Origin: a virus
Strand: one strand, 5' to 3'
Length of the DNA: 21,228 nt
IMG/VR virus record: IMGVR_UViG_3300032315_000691
Location: 1-21,228 of that record
The position numbers and the translations under genes are program-made. The notes under the pieces were generated by a model. That model made no database searches, was not told the DNA's origin, and saw only the letters and a list, made by a program, of their open reading frames with translations. Of the stretch, positions 3,541 through 14,308 are shown piece by piece; the stretch's first letter is position 1, and every line of letters starts with the position of its first letter.

Positions 3541-4451
3541 GTACGATTTCAGTATCTAATATTGTTACAGAAAATGGCTTAACTTCATTAACAATTACGA
3601 CTGGTAACACAGATGCTAGTGATATTATTTTACCAGCAGCTGGTGGCGTTGTTATTGGATCAAATTCTACAGTAAATGCAATTACAATTTCTACAGGTTC
3701 AGTAGCTAATACTTTAGTTACTAATGCTACTGGATTTTTTGTTTCTACAAATACATCTTTGTCTAGTAATTTAACGGTTACAAACAACATCACAGCTAAT
3801 AATTTTTCTGGATTTGGTATCGGGTTTGGTTCAAACCTTCAAATTCTTGATACAGGAACTTCTTGGTCAGTTCCGGCTGGCGTAAGACGTTGGAAAGTTA
3901 CTGTTGTCGGTGGTGGTGGACAAGGCGGAGGATCTGCTGCTACTGCAGGTCACGTTGGTAATGGCGGTGGTTCTGGAGCAGTTGTTGTAGGGTTTTACAA
4001 CTTTGTTTCTGGTCAAACTTCAATGACTTATAACATTGGTGCAGCGGGTTCTGGTGCGGGTACTAACGCTCAAGGAACTGCGGGTGGTGCATCAAATACA
4101 ACATATAACGCAGTTGTATATAATGCTGGTGGTGGTGGCGGAGGTAATACTTCTGCTACAATCAGCGGTGGTGGGATCGCAGGAACAGGTACTGGTGGAA
4201 CTTGGAACTTTACTGGTGATAAAGGACACTCTGGTGGTGTTGCTGCTGCAACTAACCCTGTAAGTGGAGTAGGTGGAAGTACAAATTTTGGGTTAGGTTT
4301 TGGTGGCGGGCATCCAGGAACTGCTGCTGGTGCAACTGGTGACGTTGCTGAAGGATATGGAGCAGGTGGTGCTGGTGGTAAATCTGGTTCGTCCGCGACC
4401 GCTCGCGCAGGAGGCGCTGGTGTCCAAGGCATAATTATTGTGGAGTGGTAA
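3537..4451 (+). CDS. Glycine-rich receptor-binding adhesin, 304 aa
   Basis: The N-terminal ~100 residues (MSTISVSNIVTENGL...) form a short fibre-like stalk of the type shared with other small fibre proteins here. A Gly-rich domain starts at W110 (SWSVPAGV) and continues with WKVTVVGGGGQGGG, then long Gly-rich loops, and ends with the strand GVQGIIIVEW. This 'W.VP.G...W.V.VVGGGG ... G.I.VE(W/Y)' pattern is the Gly-rich tail domain common in phages; the T-even-like adhesin gp38 of phage S16 shows that such Gly-rich loops can form a polyglycine-II core carrying exposed receptor loops. The ATG overlaps the upstream stop (ATGA) and AAGGGTGG at 3522-3529 is a suitable ribosome binding site. It is followed at once by a tail assembly chaperone. 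Confidence 0.82.
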   Translation: MSTISVSNIVTENGLTSLTITTGNTDASDIILPAAGGVVIGSNSTVNAITISTGSVANTLVTNATGFFVSTNTSLSSNLTVTNNITANNFSGFGIGFGSNLQILDTGTSWSVPAGVRRWKVTVVGGGGQGGGSAATAGHVGNGGGSGAVVVGFYNFVSGQTSMTYNIGAAGSGAGTNAQGTAGGASNTTYNAVVYNAGGGGGGNTSATISGGGIAGTGTGGTWNFTGDKGHSGGVAAATNPVSGVGGSTNFGLGFGGGHPGTAAGATGDVAEGYGAGGAGGKSGSSATARAGGAGVQGIIIVEW

Positions 4452-4452
4452 T

Positions 4453-4815
4453 ATGAGAATTTGTATTTTAGATAGTAACACCAAAATTTGCGTAGCAGCT
4501 GTTATGCTGGATACCCCAGAACAGTGGATACCAGTTGAAGGTCAAGAGGTAGCCAATAATCACGATGGTGGTATTGGTATGCAATTAACAGAAAATGGTT
4601 GGATTAGTTTAGATCCTCCAACACCAATGTCATGGGATTTAGTAAGAGAATCTAGAAACTTGTTACTTTCAGAATGTGATTGGACGGTTTTACCTGACTC
4701 ACCACTTACTGAATCTAAAAAACAAGAATGGATAGTTTATCGTCAAACATTGCGCGATATTACCGAAACATTTTCTAATACAGAAGATATTGTTTGGCCT
4801 TCTAAACCCGAATAA
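4453..4815 (+). CDS. Phage tail (fibre) assembly chaperone, 120 aa
   Basis: The start is taken as the ATG at 4453 (MRICILDSN), one base after the upstream stop, with GGAG at 4442-4445 inside the end of the preceding gene. The C-terminal half carries the signature of the Phage_tail_APC family: RESRNLLLSECDWTVLPDSP, then W..YRQTLRDI and a final IVWPSKPE. Members are small proteins encoded next to fibre genes and help fibres fold or assemble; they are not expected in the virion. The N-terminal half (residues 1-60) contains a beta-rich segment ending in GWISLDPP. Its position right after the Gly-rich adhesin suggests that adhesin or the neighbouring fibres as clients. Family assignment is good; the client is an inference. 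Confidence 0.82.
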   Translation: MRICILDSNTKICVAAVMLDTPEQWIPVEGQEVANNHDGGIGMQLTENGWISLDPPTPMSWDLVRESRNLLLSECDWTVLPDSPLTESKKQEWIVYRQTLRDITETFSNTEDIVWPSKPE

Positions 4816-4816
4816 A

Positions 4817-4824
4817 TATAAATA
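4817..4824 (+). promoter_or_regulatory. T4-type late promoter (TATAAATA)
   Basis: Perfect match to the T4 late consensus, in the 40-base gap before the 1363-aa fibre. With the T4 spacing transcription would begin near 4830, leaving a short leader with AGGGGAAAGGG (4841-4851) before the ATG at 4856. A second related box, AATAAATA (4811-4818), overlaps it. It defines a separate late transcript for the fibre genes from 4856 onward. Confidence 0.8.
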
Positions 4825-4855
4825 GTTATAGAACGCTATTAGGGGAAAGGGAACC

Positions 4856-7800
4856 ATGGCAGAAAAAGACTTTGTCGTTAAAAATGGTTTAATAGTAAAC
4901 ACCAGCTTGATTTTCGCTAATGGCGATATAGCTCGTGTAGGTATTAACAACACATCACCAGATGCATCATTAACAGTTACAGGAACAGCCAATGTTTCCG
5001 GCAACGTTACATTAAGTTCGAATCTAACTGTTGTTGGTACAGTTGTTCCTGGTAGAATCCTTGTTGGTAATACAACAATAAATGCCACACAAAACAGCTC
5101 CCTTTTACAAGTTTCGAATTCAACAGCCACAGCTAATCTAACTGCAGTTGACTTGAAAATCGGTACAACAACAGTTAACACAACTGCAGTTTCTGTCGGC
5201 GTTTCTCAGTTATCTAGCGATAGAATATCAGTTGGTAATTCTACTACCAATGCGTTCATGGGAAATAATGGCGTTAATACGGTATTACTAACTGTCGCCA
5301 ATTCAACAATCGAAGTTGACATTACACCCGCTAGTATTACCATTGGTAATTCAGTTGTCAATTCAACTGTAAATTCTACTGCTTTTAATGGTACATCGAA
5401 TAATTCAACTAATTTTGCTGGACAAGCGGCTTCTTATTACGCAAATGCAGAAAACTTAACAATCGGCACATTACTCAATGCTCGTTTGTCTGCTCAAGTC
5501 GTAAATACTTCTGGATCATTCACACTTTCTGGAAACACATCGTTAGCTGGCACAAATACAACTATTTCTAGTAACGTTAATATTACTGGGTCTTTCTTAA
5601 ACGTAGCTTCAGCTTTTGTTACAAATTCTACTGGTGCTTATCACACAGGAACTATAAACGCTGCTTCACATACTGTTGGAGCAAACATTGTAGCTAATAG
5701 TACAGGTATTACATTTGTTGGAAACACTACAAAACCAACCATTGCGATTTCTAATAGTGGTTCTATTGCTATTGGTAACAGCACTACAAATACCACAGCA
5801 ATTTCTATATTATTAGCTAACGATTCTACAAGCGCAAGCATATCACCTGCTGGGTTTACTGGTAATGGATTTAACTTAACTGTAGCTGCCGCTAATATTA
5901 CCAGCGGAACAATTGCCTCAGCTAGAATTTCGGGCGCATACACTGGTATAACTTCTGTTGGAACATTATCTACTCTAACATCAGGTAATGTCTCTTTAGG
6001 TTCTTCTTTACTACAAGTAAATTCTTCTGCTGGTAACATTAATACCGTTTCTATCGGAACTGCTAATGTCAACGTTGATTCCGGTGTTCTGTTTGTAGAT
6101 AGTATTAATAACAGAGTTGGTATCAATAATACTGGACCAGATGCTGCGCTAACAGTAACAGGATCTGCTAATGTTTCTGGTGATTTGAGAGTTCAAGGTA
6201 ACTTCTTTATCACAGGTACAACTACACAAACTGGTACAACAGAATATACTGGTTCTTTAACTCCTACTGCAAATAATATAAATCTTGGTAATGCGTCACA
6301 ACTTTGGATCTTGTACGCCAACACTGGTTATTTTAACAGTAACGTTAATTTTGGGGCTAATCTATTAATTAATTCTGCTGCAGTGGTATGGACTGGTAAT
6401 TCAACTACTTCGCCAACAATAACATTCGCAAATAGTGGTAATGTTACCATTGGTAACAGTACAACAACTCAAACTTCTGGTCGTTTAAATATCAGTAATA
6501 CAGCTGGTAACGTTAATATTACTACTGTTAACGTTTCTGTATCTAATTCTACAACAAGCGCGAATATCACAGCTGCTGGTTTCTTCGGAAATGGCTCTGC
6601 TTTAACTTCACTGAATGCTGATAACTTGACAACAGGAACTCTCGCATACGCTAGAATTCCTGCCAATATTGTTAACACTACTGGTTCGTTCACGCTTTCT
6701 GGTAATACTGTTCTGGGTGGCACGGCAACTTCGCTAACAAGTAATATAAACCTTGGTGGTGCTTCTTTACTGATTGATGCTAATACAACTTCAATCGGCA
6801 TAGTTGCAAACACAACAGGATTTAATAGCGCAACTGATACTTTGTCTGTATCTAATGCTAACATTAGAATGCAGCTGAATGACAGAGTGTATTATTTTGT
6901 GCCTTCAGGTAATACACCTATTGCTTCATTATCTGGTAACACGTATTATTTCGTTTCGTTTGTTAACAGCTCTGCGGTTGCGTTTTCTACGACAGCTGGC
7001 GGTTCTAACGTTGACATAACCGATGTTCGAACAACCAATCCTGCTGAATCACACAGTATAAAATTCGACGCTTTAATTGTTTATAACTCAGCATCCAATA
7101 ACTCTATATTTACAGTAAATGCAAGCCTTCTTTCTCATACAGGAAGAATAAATGCTGCTTCACACACTGTTGGCGCTAATATTGTTGCTAACAGTACAGG
7201 CATTGTTTTTGTAGGTAATTCAACTACTTCACCGACAGTAACTCTAGCTAACACTGGCTCGTTTACTGTTGGTAATAGCACAACCACTCAAACCACTTCT
7301 ATCATTTCTATCGCTAACAGCGCAACTAGCGCAAACATTACACCAGCTGGTTTCTTCGGTAATGGCGCAAGTTTAACTTCGTTAAATGCTGATAATTTAA
7401 CAAGCGGTGCGTTGGCTTATGCTAGAATACCAGCCAATATCGTTAATACAACAGGATCGTTTACACTATCAGGCAACACTACTCTTGCTGGAACAAATAC
7501 AGCAATATCGTCAAATGTTAATATCACCGGAGCATTCCTAAACGTAGCTTCTTCGTTCCTTGCTAACTCTACTGGAGCTTATCATACGGGAACAGTCAAT
7601 GCTGCTTCGCACACAGTAGGAACATCTACAGTTGCTAACTCTACTGGTGTGTATACAGGCATTGTTAATGCTGCTTCGCATACTGTTGGCGCTAATATTG
7701 TTGCTAATACAGTTGGTATTACTTTTGTAGGAAATACAACAACTTCTCCTACAATCGCATTAGCTAATACTGGTTCGTTTACTATCGGTAGTGGTACCAC

Positions 7801-9447: not shown

Positions 9448-9960
9448 ATGTCAACATTACAGGTCGCAAACATACATCTTGAATCTACAGCCAATAACAG
9501 ATTTCAATATATGGGATCTAACACCATAACAATGTTTACTGGTGGTTTAGCTGCCTTTACTGCTAATGACACTACATCTGTTGTGGCAGGAAACTTTATT
9601 GGTAGCAACACTCTTATTGGTCCAGGAACTGTAAGCAATGGTTACAGATTGTATGTTAATGGAACTATCTACGCAACAGGCGATATCACTGCTCTTTCGG
9701 ATATTTCTGTTAAGGACAATATCATGACAATAACAAACGCCCTTGATACTGTAGGTAATCTAAGAGGCGTTTCTTATACAGTTAAGGAAACTGGCGAAGA
9801 AAAAATAGGTCTTATTGCTCAGGAAGTTAAGAAAGTATTGCCTGAAGTTGTTGTGGAAAATTCTGACAATATTGGTATTGCTTATCAAAACATAGTAGCT
9901 GTTCTGATCGAAGCGGTGAAAGAATTGAAAAAGAAAGTGGAAGATTTGGAGTCTAAGTAA
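9448..9960 (+). CDS. Small fibre with peptidase S74 intramolecular chaperone domain, 170 aa
   Basis: Residues 1-83 are a short fibre segment (MSTLQVANIHLES... GYRLYVNGTIYATGDITAL). Residues 84-170 form an S74 / intramolecular chaperone of endosialidase type: S84-D85-ISV-K89-DNI holds the Ser/Lys dyad used for self-cleavage, followed by ALDTVGNLRGVSY, IGLIAQEVKKVLPEVV and a C-terminal helix (IAYQNIVAVLIEAVKELKKK). Such domains trimerise the upstream fibre, then cut themselves off just before the Ser. AGGAG at 9435-9439 sets the ATG at 9448. The passenger left after cleavage would be only ~83 residues, unusually short. It may serve in cis for this small tip, or act on a neighbouring fibre (speculative). 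Confidence 0.88.
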   Translation: MSTLQVANIHLESTANNRFQYMGSNTITMFTGGLAAFTANDTTSVVAGNFIGSNTLIGPGTVSNGYRLYVNGTIYATGDITALSDISVKDNIMTITNALDTVGNLRGVSYTVKETGEEKIGLIAQEVKKVLPEVVVENSDNIGIAYQNIVAVLIEAVKELKKKVEDLESK

Positions 9961-9963
9961 ATT

Positions 9964-11154
9964 ATGGTAGCAACAACTAATGTTTCTTTTGCAGCAATAT
10001 CTTTAGAACTAGACGGAACTCCTGGTACTGCATTTAGCATGAGTAATGCTTTTATGAGGTCTACTCTTAGTACTGGTCCTTCGACTCCAGGTACAGCTAT
10101 TAGTGTATCTGATGTTGCTGGTGCATTTTATAAAACGTTTACCATTAGCACAAACACAGCCAATTATAACATATATGACGCAATTGCTGCAGCTGGATGG
10201 ACTGGTATTAAAAGAGCAACAGCAAACGTAACTCTTGTTTCTCCTTCACCAACTACTGTTCAAACTGTGTTATATTCATCATCAACTGCAAATGCTGCTT
10301 TAGAATCTGGATCATTTCCTGGTTCAGCGCCCGCAAATGTCAGAATCGTTACTGGTGTAAACACATTTATCGTAGGTATGGGAGGTGCAGGCGGTGCTGG
10401 TGGGCTTGCTTCTGCTCCTGTTCCACCATCAGGAACAAATTACGCTACCGATCCTGGTGATCCTGGATCGCCCGGAGGCCATGCAATACGGCTAACCTCT
10501 GCAGCAACATATACTATCGTAAACTCCGGTACTATTGGTGGCGGTGGTGGAGGTGGAGGTGGAGGTGGAGATTGGGATTCTGCGACAGCACCATCCCCGT
10601 CACCACCATCACCGCCTTGTTTAGCTGCTGATAGTCAAATATTAATGTATGATGGCACTACAAAAAATATCTGCGATATAGTTTCTGGAGATAAATTAAA
10701 AACGCTCACAGGCGAAATAGGTACTGTGCTTTATTTAAATCCAACTACGTTAAAACGACACAGAAAAATTGTTCGTCTTAAAACTAATGAAAATGCAAAA
10801 CCATTAAGAATAACAGATGATCATGAGTTGTGGGTTAAAGACGAAACAGGCGAACGTTTTGGTATTTACAATTATAACAGCTGGTTACAAGACGAAATTG
10901 TATTGCCATCGCATAAATCTGGCGACCCGATATATGATATGAAAATTTTATCTCCTTTAGGTGTTCATAATTTTGCTACTGTAGATGGATGGACAAAAAC
11001 TAGCTGCGAATGGGAAATAAACTCTGATCCCGATGAACCTGTTTATTGTATTATGTTAGACAAAGGAGTAGGTTTCATAGCGGATGGTTTTGTTGTCGGT
11101 AATGATGACTGGTATGATAAACAATTGATAGGTGTTTCTTGGAAAGGCGTATGA
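9964..11154 (+). CDS. Gly-rich tail adhesin fused to a Hint (intein/hedgehog-type) domain, 396 aa
   Basis: Residues 1-190 look like a Gly-rich phage tail protein (AGAFYKTFTISTNTANYNI, later GVNTFIVGMGGAGGAGG and GGHAIRLTSAATYTIVNSG). A run of 11 Gly (encoded at 10537-10569) and a Pro/Ser linker (APSPSPPSPP, residues 209-218) lead to C219. From there CLAADSQILMYDGTTKNICD and VSGDKL match the N-terminal splicing block of Hint domains; TDDH at 284-287 matches the T-x-x-H motif; VYCIMLDKGVGFIADGFVVG then N380 matches the C-terminal block. The usual penultimate His is Gly (G379) and residue +1 is Asp (D381), not Cys/Ser/Thr, so normal splicing is unlikely while cleavage at C219 remains possible. 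A 16-residue tail follows. The Gly-rich fold lacks its usual C-terminus, which seems to be the ORF at 11803. The stop overlaps the next ATG. Confidence 0.85.
   Translation: MVATTNVSFAAISLELDGTPGTAFSMSNAFMRSTLSTGPSTPGTAISVSDVAGAFYKTFTISTNTANYNIYDAIAAAGWTGIKRATANVTLVSPSPTTVQTVLYSSSTANAALESGSFPGSAPANVRIVTGVNTFIVGMGGAGGAGGLASAPVPPSGTNYATDPGDPGSPGGHAIRLTSAATYTIVNSGTIGGGGGGGGGGGDWDSATAPSPSPPSPPCLAADSQILMYDGTTKNICDIVSGDKLKTLTGEIGTVLYLNPTTLKRHRKIVRLKTNENAKPLRITDDHELWVKDETGERFGIYNYNSWLQDEIVLPSHKSGDPIYDMKILSPLGVHNFATVDGWTKTSCEWEINSDPDEPVYCIMLDKGVGFIADGFVVGNDDWYDKQLIGVSWKGV
10618..11103 (+). other. Hint domain coding segment
   Basis: Encodes residues 219-380 (162 aa). That is the size of a mini-intein or bacterial intein-like domain without a homing endonuclease. 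Present: Cys1, the T-x-x-H block and a terminal Asn. Absent: the penultimate His and a +1 nucleophile. The residue before Cys1 is Pro, which is generally unfavourable for the first acyl shift. Confidence 0.82.
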
Positions 11155-11801
11155 ATTATATTTTCTCTATGGGGTTGTATAGATCTGGTACTAACTATCT
11201 ACAACAACTTTTTGATAAAAATTTTAAAAACAATTCTGGTAAAATTCAAAAATATATTTTAGAAGGAAAGTTAAATAGGCATAGTTTACACGATAGTTGG
11301 TATAATAAGATGCCAAACGATCTTGTTCCTGTAATTATATATAAAGATCCATTTAAATGGATTGATAGTCTATACCGAAAATCTTATGACTTAGAATTGT
11401 TTTATGACGTACATTATGAAACAGGGCATACAGAGATATATTTACCGTTTGAAGACCCTGATAATGAAGGGTATATTGCAGAAGTTCGTTGCAGCGTAGA
11501 AAAACTTTGTAAACTGTACAATAGGTATTTTACATATTGGTCGAATAAAAATGTTGAAATGGTTTCACATAAAAAAATGATTTGTGAAACTGAAAATTGT
11601 TTATCTTATTTTCAAAATAAATATTCTTTACAAAGGATAAATGAAAATTTTACCATGTTGGAAGTTGATGAAGTAGATGGATCAAGACCGTTTACTCAAC
11701 AGGTAAAATTGTACTATGATACTAATGAAATTGAAAATTTAAACGATGTTCAAATTAAAACAATAAAATCAACTATTGATGTAAAGTTAAAGGAGTTTTA
11801 A
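11151..11801 (+). CDS. Sulfotransferase-like protein, 216 aa
   Basis: The ATG at 11151 overlaps the upstream TGA (ATGA) and is preceded by GGAAAGG (11141-11147). The N-terminus MNYIFSMGLYRSGTNYLQQL matches the 5'-phosphosulfate-binding loop of PAPS-dependent sulfotransferases ('G..RSGT..L'). VIIYKDPFKWIDSLYR at 61-76 matches the 3'-phosphate-binding segment (usually R-D-P....S..R; here K65-D66-P67 and S73). The remainder is shorter than typical cellular sulfotransferases. The gene is very AT-rich (some 60-base lines near 18-25% G+C) and lies between the two halves of a Gly-rich adhesin. Its substrate could be the adhesin, another protein or a host glycan. The family call is fairly good; an adhesin substrate is inferred from position only. 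Confidence 0.72.
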   Translation: MNYIFSMGLYRSGTNYLQQLFDKNFKNNSGKIQKYILEGKLNRHSLHDSWYNKMPNDLVPVIIYKDPFKWIDSLYRKSYDLELFYDVHYETGHTEIYLPFEDPDNEGYIAEVRCSVEKLCKLYNRYFTYWSNKNVEMVSHKKMICETENCLSYFQNKYSLQRINENFTMLEVDEVDGSRPFTQQVKLYYDTNEIENLNDVQIKTIKSTIDVKLKEF

Positions 11802-11802
11802 A

Positions 11803-12108
11803 ATGGCCGGAGGAGGCGGAGGCGGAGGTAGAGGAGGATTAACCAATTCTGCAGGAGGAGGACCTGCCGGAGGCGCTGGAACGTTTGCAGCAGCTGGCGC
11901 TGGCCAAGGAGCGCCTGGAGCTCCAGGTGATGGTGGAAATGGAGGAAATTGGGGTGCAAATGGAAGCAGCGGAAGCCCAACCAGTCCTCCAGGACCAGCA
12001 CCTTCAGCTACAGGTCCTGGAGGATCTGGTGGAACTTCTGGTAATGCAATTTCAAATTCTGCAGGTATAACTTTTACATATTCTGGCTCAGGTAGTAGGT
12101 TCGCATAA
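11803..12108 (+). CDS. Gly/Pro-rich ORF, apparent C-terminal half of the Gly-rich adhesin, 101 aa
   Basis: Translation is expected from ATG 11803 with AGGAG at 11791-11795, one base after the sulfotransferase stop. The protein opens with M-A and seven Gly, continues with Gly-rich blocks (GGNGGNWGANGSSGS) and a collagen-like stretch (GAPGAPGDGG), then SPTSPPGPAPSATGPGGSGG, and closes with GNAISNSAGITFTYSGSG. The closing strand resembles the GHAIRLTSAATYTI segment of the upstream adhesin and the usual ends of full-length Gly-rich tail proteins. It has no stalk or attachment region of its own. I read it as the missing C-terminal part of the protein at 9964, separated by the Hint and sulfotransferase insert. 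Whether it is made and joins its partner, covalently or not, cannot be told here. Confidence 0.7.
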   Translation: MAGGGGGGGRGGLTNSAGGGPAGGAGTFAAAGAGQGAPGAPGDGGNGGNWGANGSSGSPTSPPGPAPSATGPGGSGGTSGNAISNSAGITFTYSGSGSRFA

Positions 12109-13113
12109 ATGTTTGACAAAGAATGGGCGTTTAAAAATGGTGATGATATTTCACCAAGAAAGTTACCATATTTTTATACAGATCCTGTAACAAACACAGT
12201 TATAGAAATGACAAATTGTGACTATGACACTAAAAGAAACCTTGGTTGGTATCAAATTGAATTTAAAAATAATTACGAAAATAGACCTAACACTCATTGG
12301 GAAAGTGTTGGAACATTATACTATAACAAATTAAATGACTCTGTAGAATGCCATTCTTTTGTTTTAAAAGATGGTTGGAGAAATATGTTATATCAAGAAA
12401 TTGAAGCATTAATACTAAGTTATCTAGGCGAGCCAACAGAAAAAATTACGAATTTACTATTAAAAATAAATTCGTATTTTATGAATGAGAAATATGACAA
12501 TTATCAATTAGTGGAATATTACAAGATATTTAAAAATTCTGCTTATGACATAGCCATATTCGTTGATAATGTTAACGAATATGAAATAGATGGTATTACT
12601 GCTTTTGAATTATTATTTTTTGCAGAACCTAATTTTAGACAACAACCTATATTAATGAATTACATCAAGCAAAATTTAAACGATTTTGCTGGTAAAAACA
12701 TAATTTCTTTAGGTTTAACTTCTAGTTTAACAGCTGCGTATTTAAATAAAAATAACTTCAGTAGTAAAGCTCTAGATAACATTTTCTACTATTCAACGAA
12801 ATTTAGAAAATTTCATGTCAATTTAAATTGCGTTTTGACAGCAATAAACAACGATTTATATTTTGATGTACTGACAAAGGATAATTTTGATGATATTGAC
12901 GGGGATATTTTCATATTCGCTAATCCATTTTATGATAAGCAATCTGCAGCTATCAATTTACAGTACATGCAATTATTAAAACAAAAAGGCAAAAGAACTA
13001 TTATTCTTTCGCCTCCATTGTGGGACGGAAATAATGAATTTATTACGTTTCCTAAAGAAAATCTACAAGAGCTTTACACAGAAAACGGAATTACTTTATT
13101 TACTCTCAAGTAA
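12109..13113 (+). CDS. Protein of unknown function, 334 aa
   Basis: The ATG directly abuts the upstream stop. I do not recognise the family. Residues ~1-100 are rich in aromatic and charged residues (FKNGDDISPRKLPYFYTDPV, then NTHWESVGTLYYN). Residues ~190-334 alternate hydrophobic strands and helices (GKNIISLGLTSSLTAAYL, then DGDIFIFANPFYDKQSAAI, then GKRTIILSPPLWDGN), a pattern that could be a Rossmann-like alpha/beta fold such as a methyltransferase, although no clear cofactor loop is present. No signal peptide or membrane segment. It is very AT-rich, like the sulfotransferase-like gene. It ends 8 bases inside the 3' end of the minus-strand oxygenase gene. A role with the Hint/sulfotransferase cassette is suggested only by its place. 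Confidence 0.7.
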   Translation: MFDKEWAFKNGDDISPRKLPYFYTDPVTNTVIEMTNCDYDTKRNLGWYQIEFKNNYENRPNTHWESVGTLYYNKLNDSVECHSFVLKDGWRNMLYQEIEALILSYLGEPTEKITNLLLKINSYFMNEKYDNYQLVEYYKIFKNSAYDIAIFVDNVNEYEIDGITAFELLFFAEPNFRQQPILMNYIKQNLNDFAGKNIISLGLTSSLTAAYLNKNNFSSKALDNIFYYSTKFRKFHVNLNCVLTAINNDLYFDVLTKDNFDDIDGDIFIFANPFYDKQSAAINLQYMQLLKQKGKRTIILSPPLWDGNNEFITFPKENLQELYTENGITLFTLK

Positions 13114-14308
13114 AATGCGGACCGTGAATCCAACCAACTAAAGATTTTCTTACACCTTTTGTAACAGGAGTTACTTCGTGTTCAGTGTAGGCGGGAAAAA
13201 ACGCAATTAATCCTTTTTTCTTAGGCATGGCTTCTGCTCCATTAACAGTCCAAATTAATAGATCTCCGCCTTCATATTCGCTAGGATCAGAGAGAAGCAA
13301 GCTGAAAGAAAGCTTTCTTGTTTTGTGTATCACTCCGTCCGTATGTTTGGTGTATTTGCCAGGAGTTTTATCATCAGCATGATATTCAATATACGTCAAG
13401 TGTTCTATTTTATCTAGATTAAATTTGTAGTTTTCTAAATTTTGTTTTGCGATTTCTTTTTCAATTAACTTATATAACCATTCGAAATTTTTAGGATCGA
13501 TACCAGCAACATATGCGTTTCTTATGTCTTTGTTTATTGATTCCCCTTTGCCGCCGTAACCTATGGTAGCTTGTTCTAGTTCTTTTTTACCACCCTCAAC
13601 AATTAAATCAATTAATCCGCTAGACAAAAATTTTTCTTCGTAAACCCAAAGATGTTTTTCTTCCTGTTTATTACCAAAGTACCAAAATCTATCATCATAT
13701 TCTTTTCTTGGTTTTTGGGCTTGTACAATTGGTTGTTTTTGTGTTTTTAAAGATTTTCTTCCATCATACTCTAAATCTTTATACTTACCATTAGCATCGA
13801 CATAATGTAAGAAAACCTGGCACTGCCAATTTCCTTCCTTGTATGGTTGTCTCCAATGATTGATTTCCATACCTCTATAGATAAGAGCATCGCCTAATTC
13901 GACTCTATATTCTTTAGGGTTGTCTCTTTCATCAGTAGATTCTGACAGCCATATTGGCCATAAGCCGCCATCGAATCCTAGCGTAATCGTTGCGCTAATT
14001 TCGCATTCTCTTCTGTCGGTGTGAGGTTTTAGTTTTTCTCCAGGCTTATAAAAACGAGCGTAAGAGTAAGTAGGATTTAACTTCAACCCTGTTGATTCTT
14101 CCATTGCTGGCTTTAAATCTTCCAACAAAGTGTCAAACACCGGATCTCCATAAATAGAGGGCGATAAGGGACACTGATGGTCTCCTTCTTTTAAATCTTT
14201 TGATATTTTGATAAGATGTTCAGATAACATTGAACAAGTTTTATCATCAAGAATTTTGGTGATATGGACATACTTGTTGTTTTTGAAGTATTCTTGTGGC
14301 GTGCTCAT
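13106..14308 (-). CDS. Tandem 2-oxoglutarate/Fe(II) oxygenase (prolyl hydroxylase-like), two domains, 400 aa
   Basis: This is the only minus-strand gene of the window. Its ribosome binding site AGGAGAG lies at 14313-14320 (plus coordinates), before ATG 14308-14306. Domain 1 (about 1-175): ARFYKPGEKLKPHTDRRECE gives the H96-x-D98 iron ligands, and H151 (INHWRQP) is the likely distal His. Domain 2 (about 210-400): GKYTKHTDGVIHKTRKLSFS gives H322-x-D324, GLIAFFPAYTEHEVTPV the distal H377 and KGVRKSL the 2-oxoglutarate Arg R387, as in PKHD/prolyl-4-hydroxylase-type enzymes. Both metal triads look intact. A Lys/Gln-rich linker joins them. Such enzymes hydroxylate Pro, Lys or Asp residues or small molecules. 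The Pro-rich and collagen-like segments next door are possible substrates (inference). Confidence 0.87.
   Translation of the reverse strand: MSTPQEYFKNNKYVHITKILDDKTCSMLSEHLIKISKDLKEGDHQCPLSPSIYGDPVFDTLLEDLKPAMEESTGLKLNPTYSYARFYKPGEKLKPHTDRRECEISATITLGFDGGLWPIWLSESTDERDNPKEYRVELGDALIYRGMEINHWRQPYKEGNWQCQVFLHYVDANGKYKDLEYDGRKSLKTQKQPIVQAQKPRKEYDDRFWYFGNKQEEKHLWVYEEKFLSSGLIDLIVEGGKKELEQATIGYGGKGESINKDIRNAYVAGIDPKNFEWLYKLIEKEIAKQNLENYKFNLDKIEHLTYIEYHADDKTPGKYTKHTDGVIHKTRKLSFSLLLSDPSEYEGGDLLIWTVNGAEAMPKKKGLIAFFPAYTEHEVTPVTKGVRKSLVGWIHGPHFT

Follow-up and report, generated by a model that had tools for sequence, protein, structure and literature searches.

The window considered here, that is, the whole stretch of DNA that was analysed, is a linear phage record of IMG/VR with a length of 21,228 nt from end to end, and it contains a tail locus whose features are collected in Table 1. 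A tail-fibre gene in the position of gp37 is followed by a gene encoding an adhesin of the gp38 type, and the last part of this adhesin is a Hint domain. The fibre gene matches tail fibre and long tail fibre distal subunit entries of PHROGs and has a stretch of 46 bases in common with the gp37 genes of phages like T4. The adhesin passes the gathering score of PF05268 (31.7 bits vs 25), the match covering profile positions 32-118 of 218 only. After the linker (...SPSPPSPP) the Hint domain starts with C219LAADSQILMYDG, block B reads RIT284DDH287ELW, and the end is VYCIMLDKGVGFIADGFVVG379N380 (N380 codon, 11101-11103), after which only 16 residues, D381DWYDKQLIGVSWKGV, remain before the stop. All the residues that had been named in the earlier note (C219, TDDH at 284-287, N380, P218, G379 and D381) are present in the translation.

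Table 1. Features of the tail locus, in positions of the window
Feature	Positions	Strand	Basis
Tail-fibre gene with S74 (chaperone of endosialidase) domain at its end, gp37-like position	9448..9960	+	PF13884 E 2.6e-15
gp38-like adhesin with C-terminal Hint domain, 396 aa	9964..11154	+	ORF; PF05268 GP38
gp38-like Gly-rich adhesin segment, residues 98-203	10255..10572	+	PF05268 E 1.8e-7
Pro-rich linker before Cys1, ends SPSPPSPP, P218 at -1	10573..10617	+	sequence
Hint domain, C219-N380	10618..11103	+	profiles, AlphaFold model, structure matches
C219 (Cys1), predicted N-S acyl-shift nucleophile	10618..10620	+	22/22 in family
Block B, T284-D-D-H287	10813..10824	+	S/T 22/22, H 22/22
G379-N380-D381, decayed block G: Asn without penultimate His or +1 nucleophile	11098..11106	+	His 0/22, Asn 2/22
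Conserved C-terminal tail, DDWYDKQLIGVSWKGV; relatives ...D[YW]...W	11104..11151	+	alignments
Next gene, P-loop/sulfotransferase-like by motif only	11151..11801	+	sequence; PF13469 E 0.19, sub-threshold
101-aa Gly-rich ORF	11803..12108	+	ORF list

The stop of the Hint gene is overlapped by the start of the next gene (ATGA at 11151-11154). The assignment of the latter as a sulfotransferase was set aside, as it stays at the level of a motif, with a sub-threshold Pfam score and no PDB or phage match, and its AF2 model (pLDDT 41) is too poor for use. The Gly-rich ORF has a tail-like terminus and is kept in the near twin of this phage, L002, under weaker constraint (dN/dS 0.45). Elsewhere in the window there are a homing-endonuclease-like gene with a NUMOD3 motif (168-914; PF07460; phrog_314 E 1e-22) and, antisense to the tail genes, a 2OG-Fe(II) oxygenase whose N-terminal part forms a second half that is also oxygenase-like (13106-14308, minus strand).

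Membership of 10618-11103 in the Hint superfamily, as proposed in the earlier note, is settled by relatives, profiles and predicted structure. Taken alone, the window gives only sub-threshold matches (intein_Nterm E 2e-4, intein_Cterm E 0.02; in Pfam, Hint 0.003 and Hom_end_hint 0.002). All 15 aligned relatives match both Hom_end_hint and Hint of Pfam, with a best value of 7.5e-13, and a family profile (window and 14 relatives), which could have placed the segment outside the superfamily, matches PI-SceI, Prp8 inteins and BILs in the PDB, and Hedgehog weakly. The AlphaFold model of the domain (pLDDT 82.5, pTM 0.81) was compared with solved Hint structures, and the closest folds are BIL2 of Tetrahymena BUBL1 (6y75/6tmm; Z 18.2, 143 residues, 2.1 A) and the C. 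thermocellum BIL (2lwy; Z 14.9), with further matches to the gp41-1 intein (Z 15.3) and Hedgehog-C (1at0; Z 14.4). The C-terminal Asn of the BIL2 construct (N143) was mutated in the crystal; the window family has not kept an Asn of this kind.

Searches with the window, an alignment and relatives gave 22 distinct Hint domains that sit at the extreme C-terminus of phage-type tail proteins. The proteins bearing them (fibre, collagen-like, central-fibre-like and gp38-like) differ in architecture without relation to one another, and named members come from Achromobacter phages JWF and 2-1 and from Providencia phage PSTNGR1. Identity to the window is about 25-30%. In the alignment of all 22 members, to which the residue counts given here refer (an earlier version had 17), Cys1, the block-B His and a Ser or Thr three residues before that His are found in 22/22, and both Cys1 and the His are among only 6 invariant columns of about 178 window columns. 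Because SCF or SxEH was part of the search patterns that yielded some later members, the invariance of Cys1 and His is partly biased; nevertheless, both are kept by all members reached without such patterns (the window, L002, L018, L022, L043, L056, JWF, PSTNGR1 and six found via the neighbouring gene). Further invariant residues lie away from the active site, and the tail, about 17 residues long, is conserved as well. The penultimate His is present in none of the 22, and the terminal Asn only in the window and its 92% twin L002, elsewhere being mostly Ala or Gly; N380 is there, as the earlier note said, but it is not a conserved feature of the family. Reading of the same alignment finds the block-F Asp in no member, the window having C362 there. 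The oddity of Pro at -1, also remarked on earlier, is borne out by its rarity: of 143 block-A matches at the collected loci only 5 have it, and this phage and its twin account for two of these; literature searches gave nothing usable on Pro at this position.

Between the window and L002 the Hint domain is under purifying selection (dN/dS 0.19). The tree places the window together with PSTNGR1 and L290 (98/90), the latter being radical-SAM-linked and having CFVKGS at Cys1 and a tail ...NWKGLN vs ...SWKGV in the window; this group lies within one side of the tree (87/95) that is formed by 14 of the 22 members. Monophyly of all 22 was not recovered in this tree, where the other eight are mixed with phage Hints bearing His-Asn, so block G may have been lost more than once. 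Several observations were made in passing at the loci of relatives. A small gene near a Hint tail gene matches the pyruvoyl-dependent aspartate decarboxylase PanD (L043:6359-6733; PF02261 E 4e-25) and has a homologue near another Hint tail gene (L176:5534-5908); one phage carries two tandem collagen-like tail genes, each ending in a Cys-x-Cys (CxC) run and a Hint (L239:2181-3362 and 4052-5242); a single tail protein of 1838 aa holds about seven tandem Hints, most ending in His-Asn-Lys directly before the next Cys1 (L088:1553-7066). Oxygenases of the 2OG-Fe(II) type are found close to the Hints of the window, L056 and L190; as other phage Hints have them nearby too, this link was discarded as uninformative.

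Class 1 inteins have Cys or Ser as residue 1, a block-B His, a C-terminal (His-)Asn and a Cys, Ser or Thr at +1 with a C-extein. In the window Asp is at +1, Gly is penultimate and only the short tail follows, which, with the penultimate His lacking throughout the family, makes canonical cis-splicing impossible, in agreement with the earlier note. Class 3 inteins have a non-Cys residue 1 together with the WCT motif (block-B Trp, block-F Cys, block-G Thr); this class, conceivable via C362, was rejected since residue 1 is Cys and C362, which comes after the block-F Tyr, is not conserved in relatives. A-type BILs are defined by a conserved C-terminal His-Asn (PMC4031507, PMC7765530), which the family lacks (His 0/22, Asn 2/22). 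B-type BILs are defined by a missing block G and N-terminal cleavage (PMC4031507, PMC7765530), and the window has the intein-like motifs except the C-terminal one, so that by the motifs of the published definition alone it falls here. The Hog domain of Hedgehog uses the first acyl shift only (PMC7664689), and its sterol-recognition region after the Hint has no counterpart in the window, where N380 is followed by 16 residues only.

The residue counts of the family show that selection keeps the machinery of the N-terminal acyl shift and drops block G. As the residues of the first step are held, those of Asn cyclisation are free to drift and there is no C-extein, N-terminal cleavage or transfer appears to be the best mechanism for the family, and this outcome, which the earlier note had preferred, remains the best reading because the relatives keep only the residues of the N-terminal step. 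The window Hint itself is somewhat more probably than not a cleavage- or transfer-only domain at the C-terminus of a tail-tip adhesin, like a B-type BIL or a Hedgehog Hint. Once the protein has folded, C219 would, with the aid of H287 and T284, attack the P218-C219 bond with formation of a thioester; without a penultimate His, a conserved Asn and a +1 nucleophile neither Asn cyclisation nor ligation would be expected, so water or some other nucleophile would open the thioester. The adhesin of the gp38 type would thereby lose its Hint, which is about 180 residues long, and its linker would become the new C-terminus. Pro at -1 hinders the first step in several inteins, and the block-F Asp aids the N-terminal step in many; the presence of the former and the absence of the latter lower the confidence for the window.

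The same two features, Pro(-1) being shared by the window and L002 and rare elsewhere, are the first grounds for supposing that the Hint is inactive in this phage, Pro(-1) having switched cleavage off, and is retained for folding, capping or assembly of the tail tip or as a recognition handle for modifying enzymes. Cys1 and His could then be kept for structure, which is in line with the invariant residues beyond the active site and the conserved C-terminal tail, and structural selection by itself would yield the dN/dS of 0.19. However, Cys1 and the block-B His stay invariant at this level of identity while block G decays, and a pure scaffold has no obvious need of exactly these two residues; inactivity is taken as a real possibility and not as the likely state. 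Acyl transfer to a specific nucleophile (a sugar, a lipid, an amine or another tail protein), by which the adhesin would become covalently attached as in Hedgehog, is distinctly improbable. It follows the same residue logic as Hog, it suits the tail-tip position, and an acceptor might be bound by the conserved C-terminal tail; however, no acceptor partner is conserved family-wide, sequence cannot tell transfer from hydrolysis, and for attachment to a cell-surface nucleophile, the striking use imagined in the earlier note, nothing was found, and beyond the Hint there is only the conserved tail and no sterol-recognition-like region. That the domain is a former intein on its way out is very unlikely and already contradicted: block G has decayed and the NUMOD3 gene lies in the same window, but the loss of block G is common to the whole divergent family with Cys1 and His intact, no extein follows the domain, and selection is purifying. 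It is barely conceivable that the Hint thioester joins the adhesin to the separate Gly-rich protein encoded two genes downstream in both the window and L002, as that protein has no N-terminal Cys and is under weaker constraint, and on PF05268 the joined sequence reaches only 19.7 bits where the first part by itself reaches 31.3; the same score led to rejection of the ORF as the C-half of a split gp38 adhesin, and searches for relatives found no uninterrupted version of the two.

A partner gene was recognised beside many members of the family. In 14 of the 22 cases the Hint gene has, downstream of it, a gene for a radical-SAM enzyme that also contains a SPASM domain (both PF04055 and TIGR04085 score above cut-off), a fraction inflated by the search because 6 of the 22 were found via this enzyme. 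Among named models it comes nearest to those of peptide maturases such as PapB, without reaching the cut-off of any of them, and in the first set of loci it was found only beside this Hint family (14 matches, all family loci). Directly before Cys1 a CxC run (for example NCNCNCQCPCS, then CFPAG) is present in 13 of the 14 enzyme-linked Hint genes vs none of the 8 without the enzyme (Fisher p 2.8e-5), an association that the manner of search does not inflate. Relatives of the enzyme occur in at least 582 viral stretches, and among the best 80 of these (L239-L318) a family Hint lies upstream in 7, and a nearby tail-type ORF ends in a CxC run in 62, as in ...NCNCNCNCGG followed by the stop. As controls, there are 12 CxC-ending ORFs elsewhere in the same 80 loci, and in loci without the enzyme such an ORF is met in 29 of 215, on either strand, many of them probably false frames. 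The radical-SAM/SPASM gene beside CxC-ending tail proteins looks like an unstudied system of modified tail tips that is independent of Hint. Cleavage before Cys1 would give the Hint proteins the same end as the Hint-less ones, which is the strongest indirect argument for cleavage; in the relatives, the most likely role of the Hint is to free a C-terminal tip that has been modified, since the Hint-less relatives end in the same run.

A radical-SAM gene is absent from the window and from the L002 record (38 kb), both of which are fragments, and the window adhesin has no CxC run, its Pro-rich linker standing where the enzyme-linked relatives have the run. The window phage thus seems to use the Hint module without the radical-SAM partner. 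A tentative and rather unlikely scheme of tail-tip maturation would have the radical-SAM/SPASM enzyme modify the CxC run and a first-step-only Hint later free or re-esterify the modified end, the window carrying an offshoot of the same Hint clade (with L290) on an adhesin of the gp38 type, whose linker is Pro-rich, as well as other candidates for modifying genes.

The comparison with BILs and Hedgehog made in the earlier note holds as a general likeness; what it missed is that the domain belongs to a family which recurs in phage tail tips and which in many members is partnered by a radical-SAM/SPASM enzyme. With B-type BILs the family shares the Hint fold, Cys1, block B, the lack of an intein-like C-terminal block, the expected N-terminal cleavage and an occurrence in variable surface-type proteins, whereas its place at the extreme C-terminus of phage tail fibres and adhesins and its own conserved C-terminal tail are different. 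The Hedgehog Hint is likewise a C-terminal autoprocessing domain with Cys1, Thr and His and no C-terminal splice chemistry, but the family lacks the sterol-recognition region and belongs to bacterial viruses, and the equivalent of the catalytic Asp46 is not conserved in it (Asn in the window, by eye). The gp38 adhesins are not otherwise known to carry a Hint. In its Gly-rich gp38 match and in the gene order after a gp37-like fibre the window protein is otherwise like the T4-like gp38 receptor-binding adhesins (e.g. PP01 gp38, PMC12892980). Achromobacter phage JWF gp028 is of the same family and also at a tail-fibre C-terminus, and it differs from the window in having a CxC run, a radical-SAM gene downstream (gp030) and Ser at -1, which PSTNGR1 has as well; its GenBank record names it a 'Hom_end-associated Hint family protein' and gives no mechanism.

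The fold and its chemistry are already known, and the Hint annotation of this one relative exists. What appears to be new is a recurrent family of C-terminal, putatively first-step-only Hints in phage tail tips, tied to a CxC run and a radical-SAM/SPASM gene; the literature search, subscription papers being outside its coverage, found no description of such a tail-tip Hint family or of such a use. Hint-bearing and Hint-less proteins that end in the same CxC run offer a natural comparison for the role of Hint. If the proposed reading is true, the family would offer protein chemistry a source of small Hint domains that are cleavage-only by nature, and phages would finish the receptor-binding end of their tails by the chemistry of Hedgehog and inteins.
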